Position numbers and translations under genes: made by a program
The notes under the pieces: generated by a model
Told to the model about the DNA's origin: nothing
Seen by the model: only the letters and a program-made list of their open reading frames with translations
Databases searched by the model: none
Part shown: piece after piece, positions 1 through 29,071 of the stretch
How positions within the stretch are numbered: the stretch's first letter is position 1
How the letters are laid out: each line of letters starts with the position of its first letter
NCBI GenBank assembly: GCA_010015655.1
Contig: ML976704.1
Span: forward strand, 128,272 to 192,271
Source: Bimuria novae-zelandiae CBS 107.79
Taxonomy: Eukaryota > Ascomycota > Dothideomycetes > Pleosporales > Didymosphaeriaceae
Direction of reading: 5' to 3'
Length of the DNA stretch: 64,000 bases

Positions 1-173
1 TATTTAATAATGGGTTACCCCAGGATCCAGAGCAAACAGAGACGTGTGGTACTATCCTGTCAACAAGGTCAAAACTTCGAGACTGTGGTAACAAAGTCAC
101 TTCTTAACAGCTCATGAACACCTTACTAACGTGTTCATAAGATAATAATCATCCTCAAGGGAAGGGGAATCTC

Positions 174-2253
174 ATGCGGGCCTCGTGTAAGGTTCAGTTC
201 AACATTATTATACCTGTATACGTAAGCGAGTGCCCCTACTATACGTTTACGTCAGAGGGTACACACACACACCCTCCTCCTCCACCTTCAAGGACTCCTG
301 AAGCTCTTTCAAAGGAGATAGTATCTCTTATTCACCGAATAAACGATCCAAGCATGACTGTTGGTATGCATGTTTTCTAAACACGTTCTAGACTATTTAC
401 TAACGTGTTAGCTTCCTTTCTTAAGTCACCGTTCCTTAGGGAACTTTGTAGGAACTATAACAAGCCTTCTTTTACACAGATACATCAATCGCTTGTAAAC
501 ATGGATCGTCTTGCTCAGGTTATATATCGCGAGAAGCTTATTCTGTTTCCTGCTGGTCAGGACCTCGCTGGGGTGGAGTTTGAGATGAAATTGAGGCACC
601 AAGACCTAGAAGAGGTACGCAAGCCGTTCAAAACGCACTTGCATCTAGTCTCTAATGTGTTTAGGCGTATATTAGGGAAATATACACCAATAACCTGGGC
701 AGCATCGTTCTAACTATGCATAAACCACAAGCTATTGTTTTTGCAAGCCTACAGACATTTCAGGTCGATCTCTCCTTTAAGCGAGTAGCGCGTGGGTTCC
801 ACGAGCTTATCTTTGCATACTTCCATGAGCAGCATGGCAAACGTAAGTAAACGTGTTCACAACTTGTTAGTATCCCGTTGCTAACCCTTTCTAGTGTTTA
901 CTCTCGCTCGAATGTATATCAACTGTGAGAAGCGACAAATATATCAAAAGTGCTTTAAAATCTTGTTCAAACACGTTTCTCAATGTGCTCAGAAAGATAT
1001 AAGGTGGAAGCATCTACATAATAATGGCTTTATTAGTGTTACTGTTGATATGGATGGGAAACAAATGAGTGGTACGTGATAAGAACCTATTCTAAACATG
1101 TTACTGACTGGTTATCGAAGGGTTCGGACGCTATCTCCAGTCGATTGATTCCAACAGCCGCCCCTAGCAGTGGCAACTTCAAAATACAGTTAAATTCTGT
1201 ACAGCGCACTTTCTACGAAGCATTAAAACAGCAACTCCTGGGATTAATCCAGAGTTTGATTTTGTACGCGGTCGAATGGCAGCTCTCCTTACCTGCCGAA
1301 GCTAGGAAGAATATGACACTCTTTGCGAGCAACTAATTGGTAATCTAATCGCAACCAGTTCTAAACATGTTAATAACAACTCCTTAGAGCACGAGAGCCC
1401 AACTGTTAGCAGCTAGGCAAGACACAAGCGCAATACAGTAATTGCAGCAGGGCTTAACAGAAATATTACATTAATAACCCAACGCGATTAGAATATACTA
1501 GAGGCTACTTCTAATCACGTTAAGCAGTCTGCGAAGAAGTCCTATTCGTTTAGCAAGGCTTTACGCCTTCTGCCAGCGATTCAAGCGTAAGACCCACTCA
1601 TATTGTGTTTAGAACGCGTTGCAAACATCATGCTAATTCTTTCTAGGGCTCAATTGCTTAATCAAAGGGATATTAATCAGTGGAGTACTCGAGTTCAAAG
1701 AGACATACGCCATGGCCAGCGTTCTCAAGGCCTTGCCTCTCGGTATAGTAACGCAATGGCTAGACAGAGTAGGTTACATTACGAACTTGTTCAAAGCGTG
1801 TTACTAACACCTCCAGAACGTAAACGTCAGCAACACCTCGATAGAGGCATAAATTATAATTCTAACGATAATAGGGAGGATGCTATCTTGTTTCAGGCTT
1901 CCTCCTCTAGCTATGTTCGAGCTAGAAGCACCTCAAGGCAAAGGCTAAGGCTCAGTAGGCACCCTACGCCTGCACTAGTTACTCAAACAGCAACCCAAGA
2001 CAGCGATTCAAGCTCTACAACAACGCCAACCCCATCACAACTTGTTACGATTCCGTTCAGATCACCTTCGTCGCAACTAAGCCTTCAACGTCAAGTACTC
2101 CAACAAAATCTTAATGCTCAACCACATATGAAATCCCTTGACGAAAGAGATAGGGAATCAATTGTACGAAGGCGCGAGCTGGAGAACGAGAAGCTTGAAA
2201 TAGAGCTAGAAATGCTTAGAAGTGAGAGAGCAAAGAAAACAAGCGAGCATTGA
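174..2253 (+). pseudogene. Decayed MULE-like transposase gene with six motif-bearing introns
   Basis: The coding parts resemble fungal Mutator-like transposases. The N-terminal exon has a Cys-containing stretch ending in THTHPPPPPSRTP, like the HxH end of a WRKY/GCM1-type zinc finger. A segment near 764-787 reads VDLSFKRV, a likely first catalytic Asp, and one near 1043-1070 reads VDMDGKQMSG, a likely second. A charged helical tail ends at 2253. Introns inferred from GT..AG, branch point and restored reading frame are 364-411, 843-894, 1340-1387, 1587-1646 and 1769-1816, with a degraded one starting at 1072. Splicing 364-411 joins MTV to ASFLKSPF, and 843-894 joins EQHGK to LFTLARMY. Damage includes an in-frame TAG at 1303-1305, a frame break near 710 and a lost 3' splice site near 1120. 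Family assignment rests on motif recall and is moderate. Each intron contains the AACNNGTT palindrome described separately. Confidence 0.55.
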
Positions 2254-3484
2254 CGTAAATTAGTGTTAGGAATGCATTGTAAATGTATTCAGAACGCGTT
2301 CATGTTTATTACCTGAATTGGTTTGGAGATACGGCAGTATAGAGTTAATTGCTGCTAGAACTACCTAACCTGTGGTCATTGATCTGAGAACATGTTGGGA
2401 ACACGTTGGAAGTGTCTTGAGAACTAATTGATTCTGTGGAAGCCTGGTTTTGATGATGTTTAGAACATGATCTGAACTGGATGTGAATTTAATCAGCAGC
2501 CTCATCCGAACTAGAACTCGCGTCTGCCCAGCCCTTGAACCACCGAGTGCTATCGCAATCGTCAGTCCACGTGCATGCTGAACATGTTAGTAGCATGTTA
2601 CAGACACTATAGGAATAGTTTCTACCTTTGCTAGCTGGATTAGCAGTCTTGCAAGAATCACAAGGGTAGGGCGCATTCTTCTGCTTGAGGATCTGGGCGG
2701 CTCTTGCAAAGTTGACCTGAACGCGTTATCAACATGTTCTCATCATTTGCGAACCAAATTACCTTGTTTTTATTCTTGCCTTTAGTGAATGTAGGAAGCG
2801 CAATTCGATCACAACCAGTTGGGATCGTGATAGCAAGAGACTTAGGACAGGTACGAAGGGCTTTGGGGGTGGATGATGGTTCTTGCCAGTCGTTCTTAAA
2901 TTGTTCGGAAGGTGTTGGAGGCTTAAGTTCGTTATGCTTCTTCATGATTGCTGAATACCAGACTGTAGAGATGTTAGGATCACGTTGAGAACATGTTTAG
3001 AAGTACTTGCCACGGGAATTCATAATATCCTCCATCTTCGGATTCCCAGTGTGTTCTGCCTTGCCCACCGTAATTTCGGAGTGATGCTTCTTTACGTGGG
3101 TAACCAGTGCACCTCGAGTTTTCAGCGCGTTCTAAACACGTTAGTAACACAACTAACAAAAAGTTTTGAAGCGTGAGAATATGTCTAGAACATGTTAGGA
3201 ATATGGTTTTCTTACCCCACAGAGCTCGTCGCCCACCTTCGCCCTACAGTATATCTCCCCAAAGTGTATCGTGACCTCGCCGCTAGTGTTCTGAACATGT
3301 TAGGAACCGGTTGAGATCGTGTACAGGTTACACGCACTTCTTCGAAAGGGTCGCAACCAAAGGGAGGGCAACCAAGCTCGCTATAGGCTTTGTAGGCTGG
3401 CTAGAACACGTTTAGATGAGGTACAGAACGTCTTAAGGTGTATTACACTCATAAGCAGCTGTTTGGACATGATGAGAACCTGTT
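380..3484. repeat. Dispersed AACNNGTT palindrome array in noncoding DNA
   Basis: Exact copies begin at 380, 402, 850, 861, 1095, 1364, 1613, 1784, 2293, 2389, 2400, 2581, 2720, 2731, 2990, 3135, 3189, 3294, 3305, 3405 and 3477. I count 21 by eye, where under one is expected by chance. The fuller form is TTCTAAACATGTTA or its complement. All lie in proposed introns, in the spacer 2254-2488, or upstream of the minus-strand gene, and none in proposed exons. Many abut or overlap the CTAAC branch point. The cause could be a protein-binding site or a shared intron origin. Confidence 0.85.
2489..3400 (-). CDS. Zinc-finger protein convergent with the MULE-like transposase, at least six exons
   Basis: Exons on the minus strand, 5' to 3', are 3332-3400, 3216-3290, 3007-3131, 2763-2962, 2626-2716 and 2489-2577. 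The introns between them are 41-48 nt, except 3132-3215 (84 nt). The joined product has a C2H2-like stretch (LCGNALKTRGALVTHVKKHH), then KKHNELKPPTPSEQF. A Cys cluster follows (PCDSCKTANPASK then ACTWTDDC, spacing C-x2-C-x10-C-x5-C), and the acidic tail ends DEAAD-stop. Splices 2717-2762 and 2578-2625 keep frame perfectly. The 2963-3006 junction is one base out of frame, so the copy may be mutated or an exon edge misplaced. Further 5' exons are possible upstream of 3401. I infer a nucleic-acid-binding role and an accessory function for the same element; no exact family is recognised. Confidence 0.5.
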
Positions 3485-3612
3485 GTTGAGAGGAAATAAA
3501 GTTGTTGGTAGGGTTAGGTAAGAGGCAAAATTTCGTTGGTGGGGTCACCTTTGGCGTGGTGGGATTACCTAAGCGTTGGTAAGCCGAGGCTTTCGGTGTG
3601 GTGGGGTTAACT
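3485..3612. repeat. Imperfect GGTGGGGTTA-type short repeats, possible element end
   Basis: Several related short units follow one another (ggtggggtcacctttggcg, tggtgggattacctaagcg, tggtggggttaactgc). They sit just beyond the zinc-finger gene, before AT-rich DNA begins. This could be the subterminal region of the left-edge mobile element. The opposite end lies outside the window, so inverted-repeat status cannot be tested. Confidence 0.35.
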
Positions 3613-4095
3613 GCAACCACGCATTTTTTCTCCAGACACACACAGAACACGAACATCATCAATCAATCATCACATCCATCAAATTCTCATCATTGCATTA
3701 TCTCAAAGTGACAGAACACTATCAAATCTGACAAATAGGAAGAATAGAAGATCTAATAGATAATCTTATATATAACACGCTAGAAGAAATAGCCATGTAT
3801 ATATAAACTATTAAACTACTAACTTCTACTTAGTAACTTGAAATAGAATCGTTCTATAAGGATAATACTACTAAGGACATATTAGACTATTAAGACAAAG
3901 TAGACTCACTAGGCTACTATTAAGGGAGGAAAATTAAGGATAAATACTTAACTCTTTTATTTATACTACTATCCGCAGTATTACTTGCTTAGTTAATAGT
4001 GAAAAACTAATCTAAAGTAATATAATATAGGTTATTTAAGATTATCCCCTAGGTAGTAGCTTTTATGGCGGGAACTTAAGCTAGTTACGTTATAA
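3613..4095. other. AT-rich stretch without recognisable gene
   Basis: About 480 bp of AT-rich, stop-dense sequence before the first Copia LTR. I see no gene here. It may be the left part of an older element that the minus-strand Copia split. Confidence 0.4.
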
Positions 4096-4212: not shown

Positions 4213-4659
4213 CACCCCCCCAGCTGCAGTGGACAACAAAGCTGACTTCTTTAAGATATCAATCTGAGTCTCCCCATATAGTCGCACCCCCCGATCTTCT
4301 TTTCAATACCAGGTAGAAAAGTCATCAGGCTCTGGTACATCGTTGCCAGTAGATGGTCCCTTTAGCTGCTCTGTGATATCTGTGAGGCCTAGCTATTTAA
4401 CAAAGTTGTTGTGTTTCTGTCGAACTAGTGTCTTTGTAAGACCGTCCGCAGGCATCTGATTTGTAGGCTTCCATTCAATCTGCAGCTTCCCAGCATCTAC
4501 TTCCTATCGTAGCCACATCTGATGTGTGTCGACATGTCTCAGCTTTGTATAAAGCCTATCCTCAGCCTTGTTGACAATCCCTACAGTCTGCTAATTGTCA
4601 CAGTATAAGGTAGGTAAGATCTCTGGCTAAAAGCGTACGTAGTTGAATATCTTGTTCCA

Positions 4660-7545: not shown

Positions 7546-9375
7546 CTAGTGACTACCATTATATTTAAGCTGGCATATTACATTTAATAGCTTCTTTTAG
7601 TATAGGTAGTTTTAGCTAGAGTTGAATTTAATGCCTAGGCTTCTGCATCGAGATAGGCTAACAATACTCGTGAAGAACTTAGGTATGTATACGACGTACG
7701 TTAGTCGAATTGTCTTAACTCTAAAAGGTATATTGATTTTAAGCAGGACCTCTCCCTATTCCTAAATAGGTATTAATTGGTCACTAGCGTACGCGCTTTC
7801 TTCTAGCTTAGCATTAGAGATCTTCTTCCAGCTATATGCCTTGGTATTGGTAACATGCGTATTCGAGCCAGGATCAAGAATCCATCTATTCAGTAGTGGA
7901 GGCCGAAGCATTGGCTTGTTGGTAGCAGCGACCTGAAGTGCACCACACTAAGGCATTGTAGCTGGCTACTAGCTATTATCGAAAGCAGTGACTTCTCCTG
8001 ACTTAGTAGGCGTCCTAGTATTGCTTTTGGCTAGCCTGTTCTCTATTTTTTGAAGAACCTTTGCCATAGGTGACTAATTGGCTTAAAGCTTCTGGAACTT
8101 CTTCTCGACGTCTTTGTTTGGCCGCCAATTAGCAGGTCGTAAAGCCGTATTGACGTAGTAGCAACTGTCGAATCTATGCTTCTCGCCACATAGGCAGGTT
8201 AGTGTCTTCTTCTAACGCTCATTCTTCTGATCCTTTAACTAATTGGCTGGCTGATCGGCTGGTAGAGTAACACCTAGAGTAGCGAATGTACCTAGTCCTG
8301 ATACAATTGGTCGAGTCCGTCGATAGTACAAAGTAAAATTGGCTACTAGATTAGAGATGCTGATAAAGTCTTTACTAGTCCGTTCTGCTATAATAAGCGC
8401 TAATAGCTGACTTAATGCCCAGCTATTATCTAGGCCTTTAATTAATAGGATAAAGTCTTCTTGCGCTTAATTGCCATAGACCTTTAGCATGCCCGCTTAG
8501 GTCATAAGACGCGTTGTCTCTATCTAGTCCTAAAACTAGGTGTCGAGGTTTGCCTTTCGTAGTCGATTCTTAAGTACCTAATAACGTGCTTAGAGTTAAG
8601 CATTGCGCTCACCTTAGCTAGGACAGAGGTGCTTCATCAGAGTTCTTAGTCGCTCATGTGTGCTCGAGCAGTCGGCGATTAGATAAATATGCCGCAATGC
8701 AATTGTTCTATTAATCTGCTCTGTAAAGTTTCCAAGAGCTTTTTCTTTCTGCCGCCATTCGGCTAGTGCACTTTGATAGTCCTTTTGCCAAAGCTCGTAT
8801 CTTCTTAGCTCCTGATCTGTGAGGTCCAGGATAGTGACTTCTTCGGCATCTTGATCGCCTGCTGCGCCACCCCCTGTGCCCCTTGCGCTCCCTGCTTCGC
8901 CACTTACGTTACCACCTCTTGCAGTTCTTGGCTTATGAAATTCCTTTAGCTTAAGCCTTTTAGGCTTCTCTGTCTCTAACTTAGAGACTTCTTCGTGGCT
9001 TAGCGATAGATCGACGTATTCCTAGATATAGTTCCTGACTGCGTAGTCCTTTCTGAGGAATATCTATTTCGACCAATCCTCTAGTTTGTCGAGTATAACG
9101 GTCTCTTTCGTAATTAGCAGGTCTAATTTAGTCGCTATCCTTGCAAGATGCGGCGTCCGTATTCTGTGCGGCGTCTGTATTCTGTACGACGTTGATTCTC
9201 TAACGACGAGGTCCTAACTAGCGCTAATCCTAGACGATTCACGTCTCTTAACTAATTGTCCAGTGACAACGAGGTCCCAACTTAACGACGTAACAACTGA
9301 CTAGGTCTGCAAAGATAGACCCTAGTACAATACCCTGTGAACGTAGCGATTGTTGAAGGCTTCCGGGCTTATAAC

Positions 9376-28463: not shown

Positions 28464-29071
28464 GAGAAGGGCTTATAGAGAATCGCCTTTAGTAGCGTTC
28501 TTAACGCGTTTATATATCTTACTAGGGGCTAAGTTAGTAATGCCTAAAATAGTCGATATGTTAGGGAAAGTAAGGCTGTAGTAACGCCTAAAAATAATAA
28601 GAGCACCTATTTAAGCGTTAAAAAACGCTATAGCACTTTTTTTAAGGTGTAAATTAGTTATATTAAGTAAGAAAGTAGGTATTAAAGTGTAGGTAACGAC
28701 GCCTTATAAAGTGTCGAAGGGCTAGAGGTTTTATTACCTAGTATCTTTTTAGCGTCTGTTCAGCGTCTTGGCACGTCATGTGACGGAACGGTATTTTCCC
28801 AATTACCCTTTGTAGCTAAGATAAATGTGGTCTTGTGGGGGCGGCAGCATGACTCAGCAGACGCGGTGTTGAAATCGCTTGATGCGAGACGGGCCATTCA
28901 GGCTTCCCAGGCATAGCCATGGCCCCTCCCACACTGCCCGCACTGCACCATCCAGCGAACGCGATGGAACACGGCTGAACTATTTCCTCGCGAAGCTACC
29001 ACTACCATCATTTCGAGACTCTTCTCGTCGCGCACGCCGTATCTTCCCCTGCCGCCTGCGGCACCAGCACC
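28464..29071. other. Transition from AT-rich DNA to gene island; promoter side of the hydrolase gene
   Basis: The AT-rich sequence stops near 28770. The last 300 bp are mid-GC and precede a plus-strand gene, so they probably hold its promoter and 5' UTR. No specific site is claimed. Confidence 0.4.

Follow-up and report, generated by a model that had tools for sequence, protein, structure and literature searches.

Why does a fungal transposon carry the same short palindrome in almost every one of its introns? The question arises from a 64,000-nucleotide stretch of the Bimuria novae-zelandiae CBS 107.79 genome (contig ML976704.1, positions 128,272 to 192,271; hereafter the window), which opens inside element A, a two-gene DNA transposon of 4,871 bp (C49:127021-131891). 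The first-pass annotation of the window had noticed the palindrome AACNNGTT in the noncoding DNA of this element and had suggested, by analogy with plant Mutator-like elements (MULEs), that the element marks its own DNA. The main regularity, which is absent from that annotation, is that the sites are tandem AACNNGTT units at 11-bp steps. These units very probably constitute DNA-binding arrays maintained by selection. The best overall reading, which we hold with about even confidence, is that the phased arrays are bound by a factor that is probably the element's own, with self-recognition as the likely purpose. All DNA comparisons were made within this single 77-Mb genome, relatives in other fungi were compared as proteins, and gene models were set partly by eye.

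Distribution of the Palindromic Sites

Gene models for element A were derived from its alignment with a relative, B (67–72% identical in two long DNA matches), together with splice signals. Gene 1, which encodes the transposase, lies on the plus strand and has 13 introns, and gene 2, which has 6 introns, is encoded convergently on the minus strand. The full element contains 33 exact sites, of which 26 are intronic (962 nt), 4 intergenic (585 nt) and 3 exonic (3,324 nt); sites are about 30-fold denser in its introns than in its exons. In 500 dinucleotide shuffles, a comparison that the first-pass annotation had suggested, the mean numbers were 0.72 for introns (maximum 4, with 26 observed), 0.27 for intergenic DNA and 0.61 for exons. 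Relative B has 18 intronic (942 nt), 3 intergenic (569 nt) and 5 exonic sites (3,351 nt), with shuffled means of 0.70, 0.31 and 0.64, respectively. Sites are extremely concentrated in introns, and their number in exons is somewhat higher than chance would give. An exact site is present in 18/19 introns of A and 13/19 introns of B, and a site matching five of the six fixed bases is present in 19/19 introns of both.

Within the window, 25 exact sites start between 380 and 3477, with one more at 128; of the 39 sites in the whole window, the remaining 13 lie in the other ~60 kb. The cluster of 21 sites first reported at 380–3484 is real and had been undercounted, the actual number being 25. Two accompanying statements of the first-pass annotation do not hold. 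Exons had been described as free of sites, whereas those at 970, 2039 and 2813 are exonic in the spliced models. In addition, the 14-mer TTCTAAACATGTTA, which had been given as the usual context, occurs only twice in element A and nine times genome-wide (both strands).

Phasing of the Sites at 11 bp

Between 380 and 3484 there are five exact pairs of sites 11 bp apart, accompanied by degenerate neighbor units at ±11 and ±22 bp. Palindromic places match both strands and were each counted once in the genome-wide analysis, which gave 167 exact pairs at 11 bp (6 for a reversed-pattern control) and 70 at 22 bp (control, 5), compared with 1 at 10 bp (control, 2) and 6 at 12 bp (control, 7). These counts, taken with the shuffles, rule out a chance origin of the arrays.

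The same step is seen in the DNA surrounding single sites. For 119 exact sites in five families, the mean match to the six fixed bases is 3.98–4.09 at ±11 bp and ~3.0 at ±22 bp, against a baseline of 1.58. The profile of matches has maxima at 11 and 22 bp, flanked by one-base shoulders, and rises slightly again at 33 bp. In 130 sites from six families, base frequencies 11 bp to either side are A 0.77–0.82, A 0.70–0.73 and C 0.51–0.57, continuing in the neighbor unit with G 0.51–0.57, T 0.70–0.73 and T 0.77–0.82, which is AAC..GTT again; the center of the neighbor unit is mostly AT, GT, AC or GC. When units are counted at a threshold of at least 4 of 6 bases, 23/25 arrays of A have at least two units and none has more than five.

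Pairs at 11 bp were assigned to the transposon lineage by position or by identical pair sequence. Among the first 50 of the 167 pairs (C1 to part of C20), 46 belong to the lineage and three are of nearly one sequence, the member that was read (L060) lying in retrotransposon-like DNA; one pair (C9:90823) falls outside both groups.

Conservation among Related Families

Six families, namely A, B and four others designated F3–F6, have site densities of 4.3–6.8 per kb, compared with 0.25 per kb at window positions 4,301–28,500 and 0.21 per kb at 28,501–61,500. Protein identity is 42% for F3 (L053), ~24–40% in the longer matched blocks of F4 (L054), ~26–46% for F5 (L056) and ~50–78% for F6 (L055), in which an internal run of N was left out of the site count. 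Thus, the enrichment expected in other copies and relatives is found in all those read. In F3 gene 1 (NCBI model), 8/12 introns have an exact site and 12/12 a unit of at least 5 of 6 bases, and four exact sites are exonic. When one rule was used to define intron-like segments, a site was present in 19/28 segments from the six families and in none of the unrelated segments (0/31 at window positions 4,301–61,500; 0/5 in two tubulin loci, which have 3 sites in 3.5 kb), in agreement with the expectation that the motif is rare in unrelated introns.

Conservation between A and B differs base by base. Intron identity outside the motifs is 0.60. Inside intron motifs (26 A sites, 17 B sites), identity is 0.88–1.00 at the A/T bases and 0.65–0.94 at the C/G bases, falling to 0.42–0.47 at the center bases and 0.41–0.76 in the spacer. 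Ten intronic sites are shared in register by A and B, whereas about 1/26 would be expected by our estimate if six independent bases were each retained at 0.6 identity. Judged by these alignments, the per-base pattern is that of a protein-binding site.

Two explanations based on the history of the introns fail at this point. Shared intron descent had been offered as the alternative to a functional motif. Passive inheritance is insufficient because the motif recurs in six families down to ~30% protein identity; its persistence at ~30–42% protein identity and the site-by-site constraint rule out this explanation, at least on its own. Introner-like introns are copies that are similar over their full length and are confined to introns. 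An origin of this kind is rejected, as the recurring thing here is the phased AACNNGTT unit, which is present also in the spacer and in upstream DNA.

Gene content varies among the families. Gene 2 is present and convergent to gene 1 in A, B and F3, and in F6 by short matches. F4 and F5 are complete single-gene elements with a transposase, both inverted repeats (125 bp at 90% in F4; 41 bp at 93% in F5) and the same motif and spacing. The transposase occupies most of the space between their inverted repeats, and gene 2 was not detected in either, although a strongly diverged gene 2 could escape the search. The motif travels with the transposase rather than with gene 2.

Longer tandem arrays of AACTTGTT-type sites at 22-bp steps are found at C24:598576-598759, C71:320638-320755, C79:136782-136855 and C3:16836-16909, partly on contigs with F5-like pairs; they are perhaps expanded forms of the same code.

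A Proposed Factor That Reads the Arrays

The palindrome, its fixed helical phase, its occurrence in genes of both strands and in introns as well as the spacer, its rarity elsewhere and its base-by-base constraint together argue for arrays bound by a factor that recognizes double-stranded DNA. Such a sequence-specific factor would read AACNNGTT arrays with a mostly purine–pyrimidine (RY) center. With the 11-bp step, neighboring protomers would be separated by about one helical turn and lie on the same side of the DNA, so that they could bind cooperatively. Distributed through short introns, the gene spacer and the vicinity of gene starts, the arrays would cover most of the element, and they may be kept in noncoding parts because coding sequence cannot easily carry them.

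The factor is most likely encoded by the transposon lineage itself. The gene 1 transposase is the preferred candidate, as no other protein is common to all motif-bearing families, and its identification as the binder falls slightly short of an even chance; gene 2 could have an assisting role or work in trans. More tentatively, and by analogy with VANC proteins of plant VANDAL transposons, the factor could serve anti-silencing or self-marking, coating the element's own copies and keeping them transcribable or mobile against host silencing. A stronger version, which is unlikely, treats the introns as operator DNA: the transposase, or a protein from a sister family, would polymerize on the phased palindromes in the introns, mark the copies and shield the bases of the motif from repeat-induced point mutation (RIP) during the sexual cycle. 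If so, every copy would be marked as self across diverged families, and mutated copies would keep a footprint of the bound protein.

Mutated Copies and Points against the Bound-Array Reading

In a RIP host, the bases that were mutable can be read from each dead copy. Between the copies on C49 and C108 there are 92 differences, including 87 transitions, and C-to-T and G-to-A changes make up most of the differences between several B and F4 copies and their less mutated relatives. Counts were made in six mutated copies of two families, with an overlapping stretch of C92 (L045/L007) counted once. CpA was changed in 10/89 cases within the motif and in 121/312 cases of AACA elsewhere (stratified odds ratio 0.126, p = 1.2e-8). 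A per-position test with 35 motif and 125 control positions (p = 7e-5) is safer, because copies share some mutated positions. In the noncoding DNA of B only, the corresponding fractions are 5/58 and 29/107 (p = 0.003). The 10 changes seen in motif CpA compare with 38/89 expected from all CpA and 23 from a context-only model, and the motif term with local context modeled has an odds ratio of 0.33 (p = 0.0025).

Several observations weigh against arrays that are bound by a protein of the element, the first of them from the same mutated copies. CpA in the adjacent spacers is mutated in 68/130 cases, a rate not expected beside a bulky bound protein, and motif CpG is not significantly spared (6/116, compared with 9/95 for AACG). 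In RIP-like DNA outside known elements, CpA-type motifs number 12 where 5.9 are expected, and one of three control palindromes there is likewise in excess (11 vs 6.0). The motif sequence may therefore be intrinsically resistant to RIP. As local context explains about half of the effect, the spacers are unspared and the motif is in excess in other RIP-like DNA, we do not take the sparing as clean proof of a footprint; it is suggestive only. In addition, some sites are exonic (3/33 in A and 5/26 in B), and no DNA-binding domain was confidently identified in the gene 1 or gene 2 protein. In A, the motif is also missing from the inverted repeats and from the terminal 229 bp at the 5′ end and 136 bp at the 3′ end, so a transposase that reads the motif would need a second specificity.

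Alternative Explanations

Among the rival binders, the gene 2 protein fares best, although it too is unlikely. It would act in trans on all families, including those that lost the gene. The first-pass annotation had named this minus-strand zinc-finger protein as the plausible factor, and its weak C2H2 match (E 0.035), the presence of gene 2 in A, B, F3 and F6 and the sites within its own introns all fit that proposal. F4 and F5, without detectable gene 2, nevertheless keep the same arrays, which disfavors gene 2 as the sole binder, and the gene 2 protein diverges (31–59% identity in exon-sized matches between A and B-type copies) while the motif is unchanged.

Somewhat less likely still is a host factor (repressor, insulator or silencing machinery) whose sites the element adopted or cannot shed. 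A single motif common to all families read, whatever their gene content, would follow naturally from this explanation. A host site would, however, be expected at host genes too, whereas phased pairs are rare outside the lineage, to which all but four of the first 50 pairs belong, and the PF10551 MULEs of the genome are located elsewhere. For C1–C19, no PF10551 hit over the cut-off lies within 50 kb of a listed 11-bp pair.

It is improbable that the motif reflects a splicing constraint acting on RNA, in which AAC would supply the branch point CTAAC and the remainder an intronic splicing signal. In favor of this explanation, nearly all introns hold the motif, and CTAAC close to the acceptor is often part of the last unit. 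Single-stranded RNA, however, would hardly account for a palindrome at the DNA level that keeps strictly to an 11-bp step; the motif is present also in the gene spacer, and the unrelated intron-like segments of the window (0/31) and of the two tubulin loci (0/5) are without it.

A role of the periodicity in DNA–DNA pairing, or as a RIP-related code that avoids or steers homology sensing, is highly improbable: the period is that reported for RIP homology recognition in Neurospora, which reads triplets at 11–12 bp (PMC4858203), and RIP-type change is depleted in the motif, but arrays of A and B have at most five units (~50 bp) compared with the several hundred bp described in that report, and RIP-type change between units is as frequent as elsewhere.

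Positions of the Arrays and Genes in the Window

Window positions 1–2253 (plus strand) belong to gene 1, with exons at 1–87, 142–363, 412–614, 665–842, 895–1071, 1121–1339, 1388–1586, 1647–1768 and 1817–2253; this copy holds in-frame stops of RIP type. Arrays lie in the introns at 88–141 (site 128), 364–411 (380 and 402, 22 bp apart), 843–894 (a four-unit array with sites 850 and 861, 11 bp apart), 1072–1120 (1095), 1340–1387 (1353 and 1364, 11 bp apart), 1587–1646 (1613) and 1769–1816 (1784). The intron at 615–664 has two 5-of-6 units and is the sole one of the 19 without an exact site. The convergent spacer (2254–2488) has sites at 2293, 2389 and 2400.

Gene 2 (2489–3470, minus strand) encodes a Cys/His-rich protein of ~221 amino acids. 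Its introns are at 2578–2625 (site 2581), 2717–2762 (2720 and 2731, 11 bp apart), 2963–3013 (2990), 3132–3215 (3135 and 3189), 3291–3331 (3294 and 3305, 11 bp apart) and 3401–3446 (3405), and a further exact AACNNGTT site is located directly upstream of the gene (3477–3484). The donor of the intron at 2963–3013 is weak. A 23-bp duplication in this intron in copies C6 and C137 is the one clear case in which motif DNA was gained by tandem duplication. The exonic sites lie at 970–977 and 2039–2046 in gene 1 (plus strand) and at 2813–2820 in gene 2 (minus strand), the latter two being common to B.

The Proteins of Element A

The gene 1 model is corroborated by the NCBI protein BU23DRAFT_191377, which reproduces the 12 coding introns when threaded onto B, apart from a 6-nt shift of one acceptor. 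In the threading of protein P0011, the first four introns given by the aligner are discounted as an artefact of its start search. Homologues occur in Plenodomus lindquistii (53%), Pleomassaria siparia (42%), Lindgomyces ingoldianus (43%), Zopfia rhizophila (29%; UniRef name, MULE transposase) and Cetraspora pellucida (21%); one homologue (P0008) has this UniRef name. Neither PF10551 nor another convincing Pfam domain was found in the B gene 1 product, and homologues P0003, P0004 and P0006–P0010 have no PF10551 match. With regard to an RNase H-like DDE core related to that of canonical MULEs, comparison of the transposase with four PF10551 stretches of the same genome by hhalign was not significant (probability 0.14%), and none of the 32 PF10551 hits of the genome overlaps a transposase match of the lineage. 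A PDB sequence search with the transposase profile and an NCBIfam scan gave nothing significant. The structure model of the transposase is poor (predicted local distance difference test, pLDDT, 55), and a fold search with this low-confidence model gave no match at E ≤ 0.001.

In the C-terminal part of gene 1 (window ~1500–1530; B in L042), the column SNxVExx has a lysine in A and B and a glutamate in most homologues; this glutamate is possibly the catalytic one. PF10551 MULEs coexist with the lineage at other places in the genome (27 hits over the cut-off).

The C2H2 match of the gene 2 product is below the Pfam threshold. In F3, the homologous protein is annotated at NCBI as BU23DRAFT_100903. 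One exon in the gene 2 model of B contains a frame break, and no protein from this model was used.

Ends and Copies of Element A

The window contains the 3′ three quarters of element A (1–3620, plus strand), and the remaining first 1,251 bp lie to its left (L039:8722-9972). The 3′ terminal inverted repeat (3596–3620, minus strand) matches the 5′ end at L039:8722 in 22/25 bases. Ten other copies of element A cover the 3′ end at 98–100% identity, and their boundary is at position 3620 in eight, 3621 in one and 3629 in one. A 9-bp target duplication, TAGTACTTC, surrounds the C6 copy, and another, ATCGACGCT, surrounds the copy of relative B on C4; F5 is flanked by a 10-bp repeat. By eye, a clear duplication is absent at the C49, C108 and C102 copies, which leaves three of the six copies examined with one. 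The C6 copy was considered as a hybrid and rejected as such, because what separates its A ends is a run of N.

Seven contigs terminate within copies of element A (C5:1, C52:1, C79:1 and the ends of C75, C64, C145 and C137), at 98–100% identity and with the 3′ end always inward, which suggests that near-identical recent copies broke the assembly. The copy number of element A is therefore underestimated. Runs of N of 1,225, 2,885 and 2,145 bases inside element copies L046, L047 and L055 are probably assembly gaps in repeats. To the left of the window, identical 129-bp direct repeats (L039:3528-3656 and 8593-8721) flank DNA that is retrotransposon-like by eye; element A directly adjoins the second repeat, and the sequences that follow element A and the first repeat match each other. 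Window positions 3734–4092 hold a repeat of ~360 bp with at least 23 further genome copies at 82–86% identity.

Comparison with Known Systems

The first-pass description of a two-gene MULE-like element with short noncoding motifs stands as regards the arrays, target duplications and inverted repeats, whereas PF10551 is unmatched. We use the label MULE-like on account of the target duplications (9–10 bp, in 3/6 copies, compared with 8–11 bp for MULEs in general) and the inverted repeats (in A, F4 and F5); the lineage is not a proven MULE. Maize MuDR resembles element A in having convergent genes, mudrA and mudrB, for a transposase plus a helper, and differs in its long inverted repeats; we know of no phased intronic arrays in MuDR. 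Mutyl of Yarrowia lipolytica is a MULE with two genes, mutA and mutB, the latter being antisense according to a table of the source, which is contradictory on orientation (PMC6446971). Mutyl has short inverted repeats (22 bp, compared with 25 bp here), a 9–10 bp target duplication and a second gene with a C2H2-like feature (PMC6446971). In element A, the second gene is antisense and its C2H2 match is below the cut-off. The available part of the description of Mutyl mentions no motif arrays (PMC6446971). A further parallel is provided by fungal DNA transposons carrying a TET/JBP dioxygenase, that is, a gene with a possible effect on cytosine methylation; there the means is an enzyme, whereas here it is a cis array of binding sites (PMC12730594, in the part available).

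No fungal case of self-marking is described in the titles and abstract openings that our literature searches listed. The sole documented instances of a transposon marking its own noncoding DNA are, to our knowledge, the plant VANDALs. In the Arabidopsis MULEs VANDAL21 and VANDAL6, target motifs of VANC proteins are found in introns, intergenic DNA and terminal noncoding DNA and form tandem arrays (Hosaka 2017, PMC5735166), and VANC21 and VANC6 have different motifs (Hosaka 2017, PMC5735166; Sasaki 2023, PMC10398659). So far as the available parts of these sources go, the resemblance covers a MULE or MULE-like transposon with a short motif that is dense in the noncoding DNA of its own copies, rare elsewhere and rarer in coding DNA, and the tandem-array character of that motif. 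VANC proteins belong to the DUF1985 family, and no VANC-type Pfam match at E ≤ 10 was found for the product of gene 1 in B or of gene 2 in A; the parallel therefore concerns the way of working and not family membership.

The differences from VANDAL elements, within the same limits of the sources, lie in the motif and in the host. The motif here is the palindrome AACNNGTT with a fixed 11-bp spacing, whereas that of VANDAL is YAGTATTAY in one orientation. A single motif is common to families down to ~30% protein identity, whereas VANC21 and VANC6 have separate ones. The host here is a fungus with RIP, and the host defense in the plant is RNA-directed DNA methylation (RdDM). With its palindrome and exact helical phase (167 pairs genome-wide at 11 bp, compared with 1 and 6 at the adjacent spacings), the present system gives a sharper sign than VANDAL, and it would make testable both a single recognition code across radiating families and the maintenance of introns as binding platforms.

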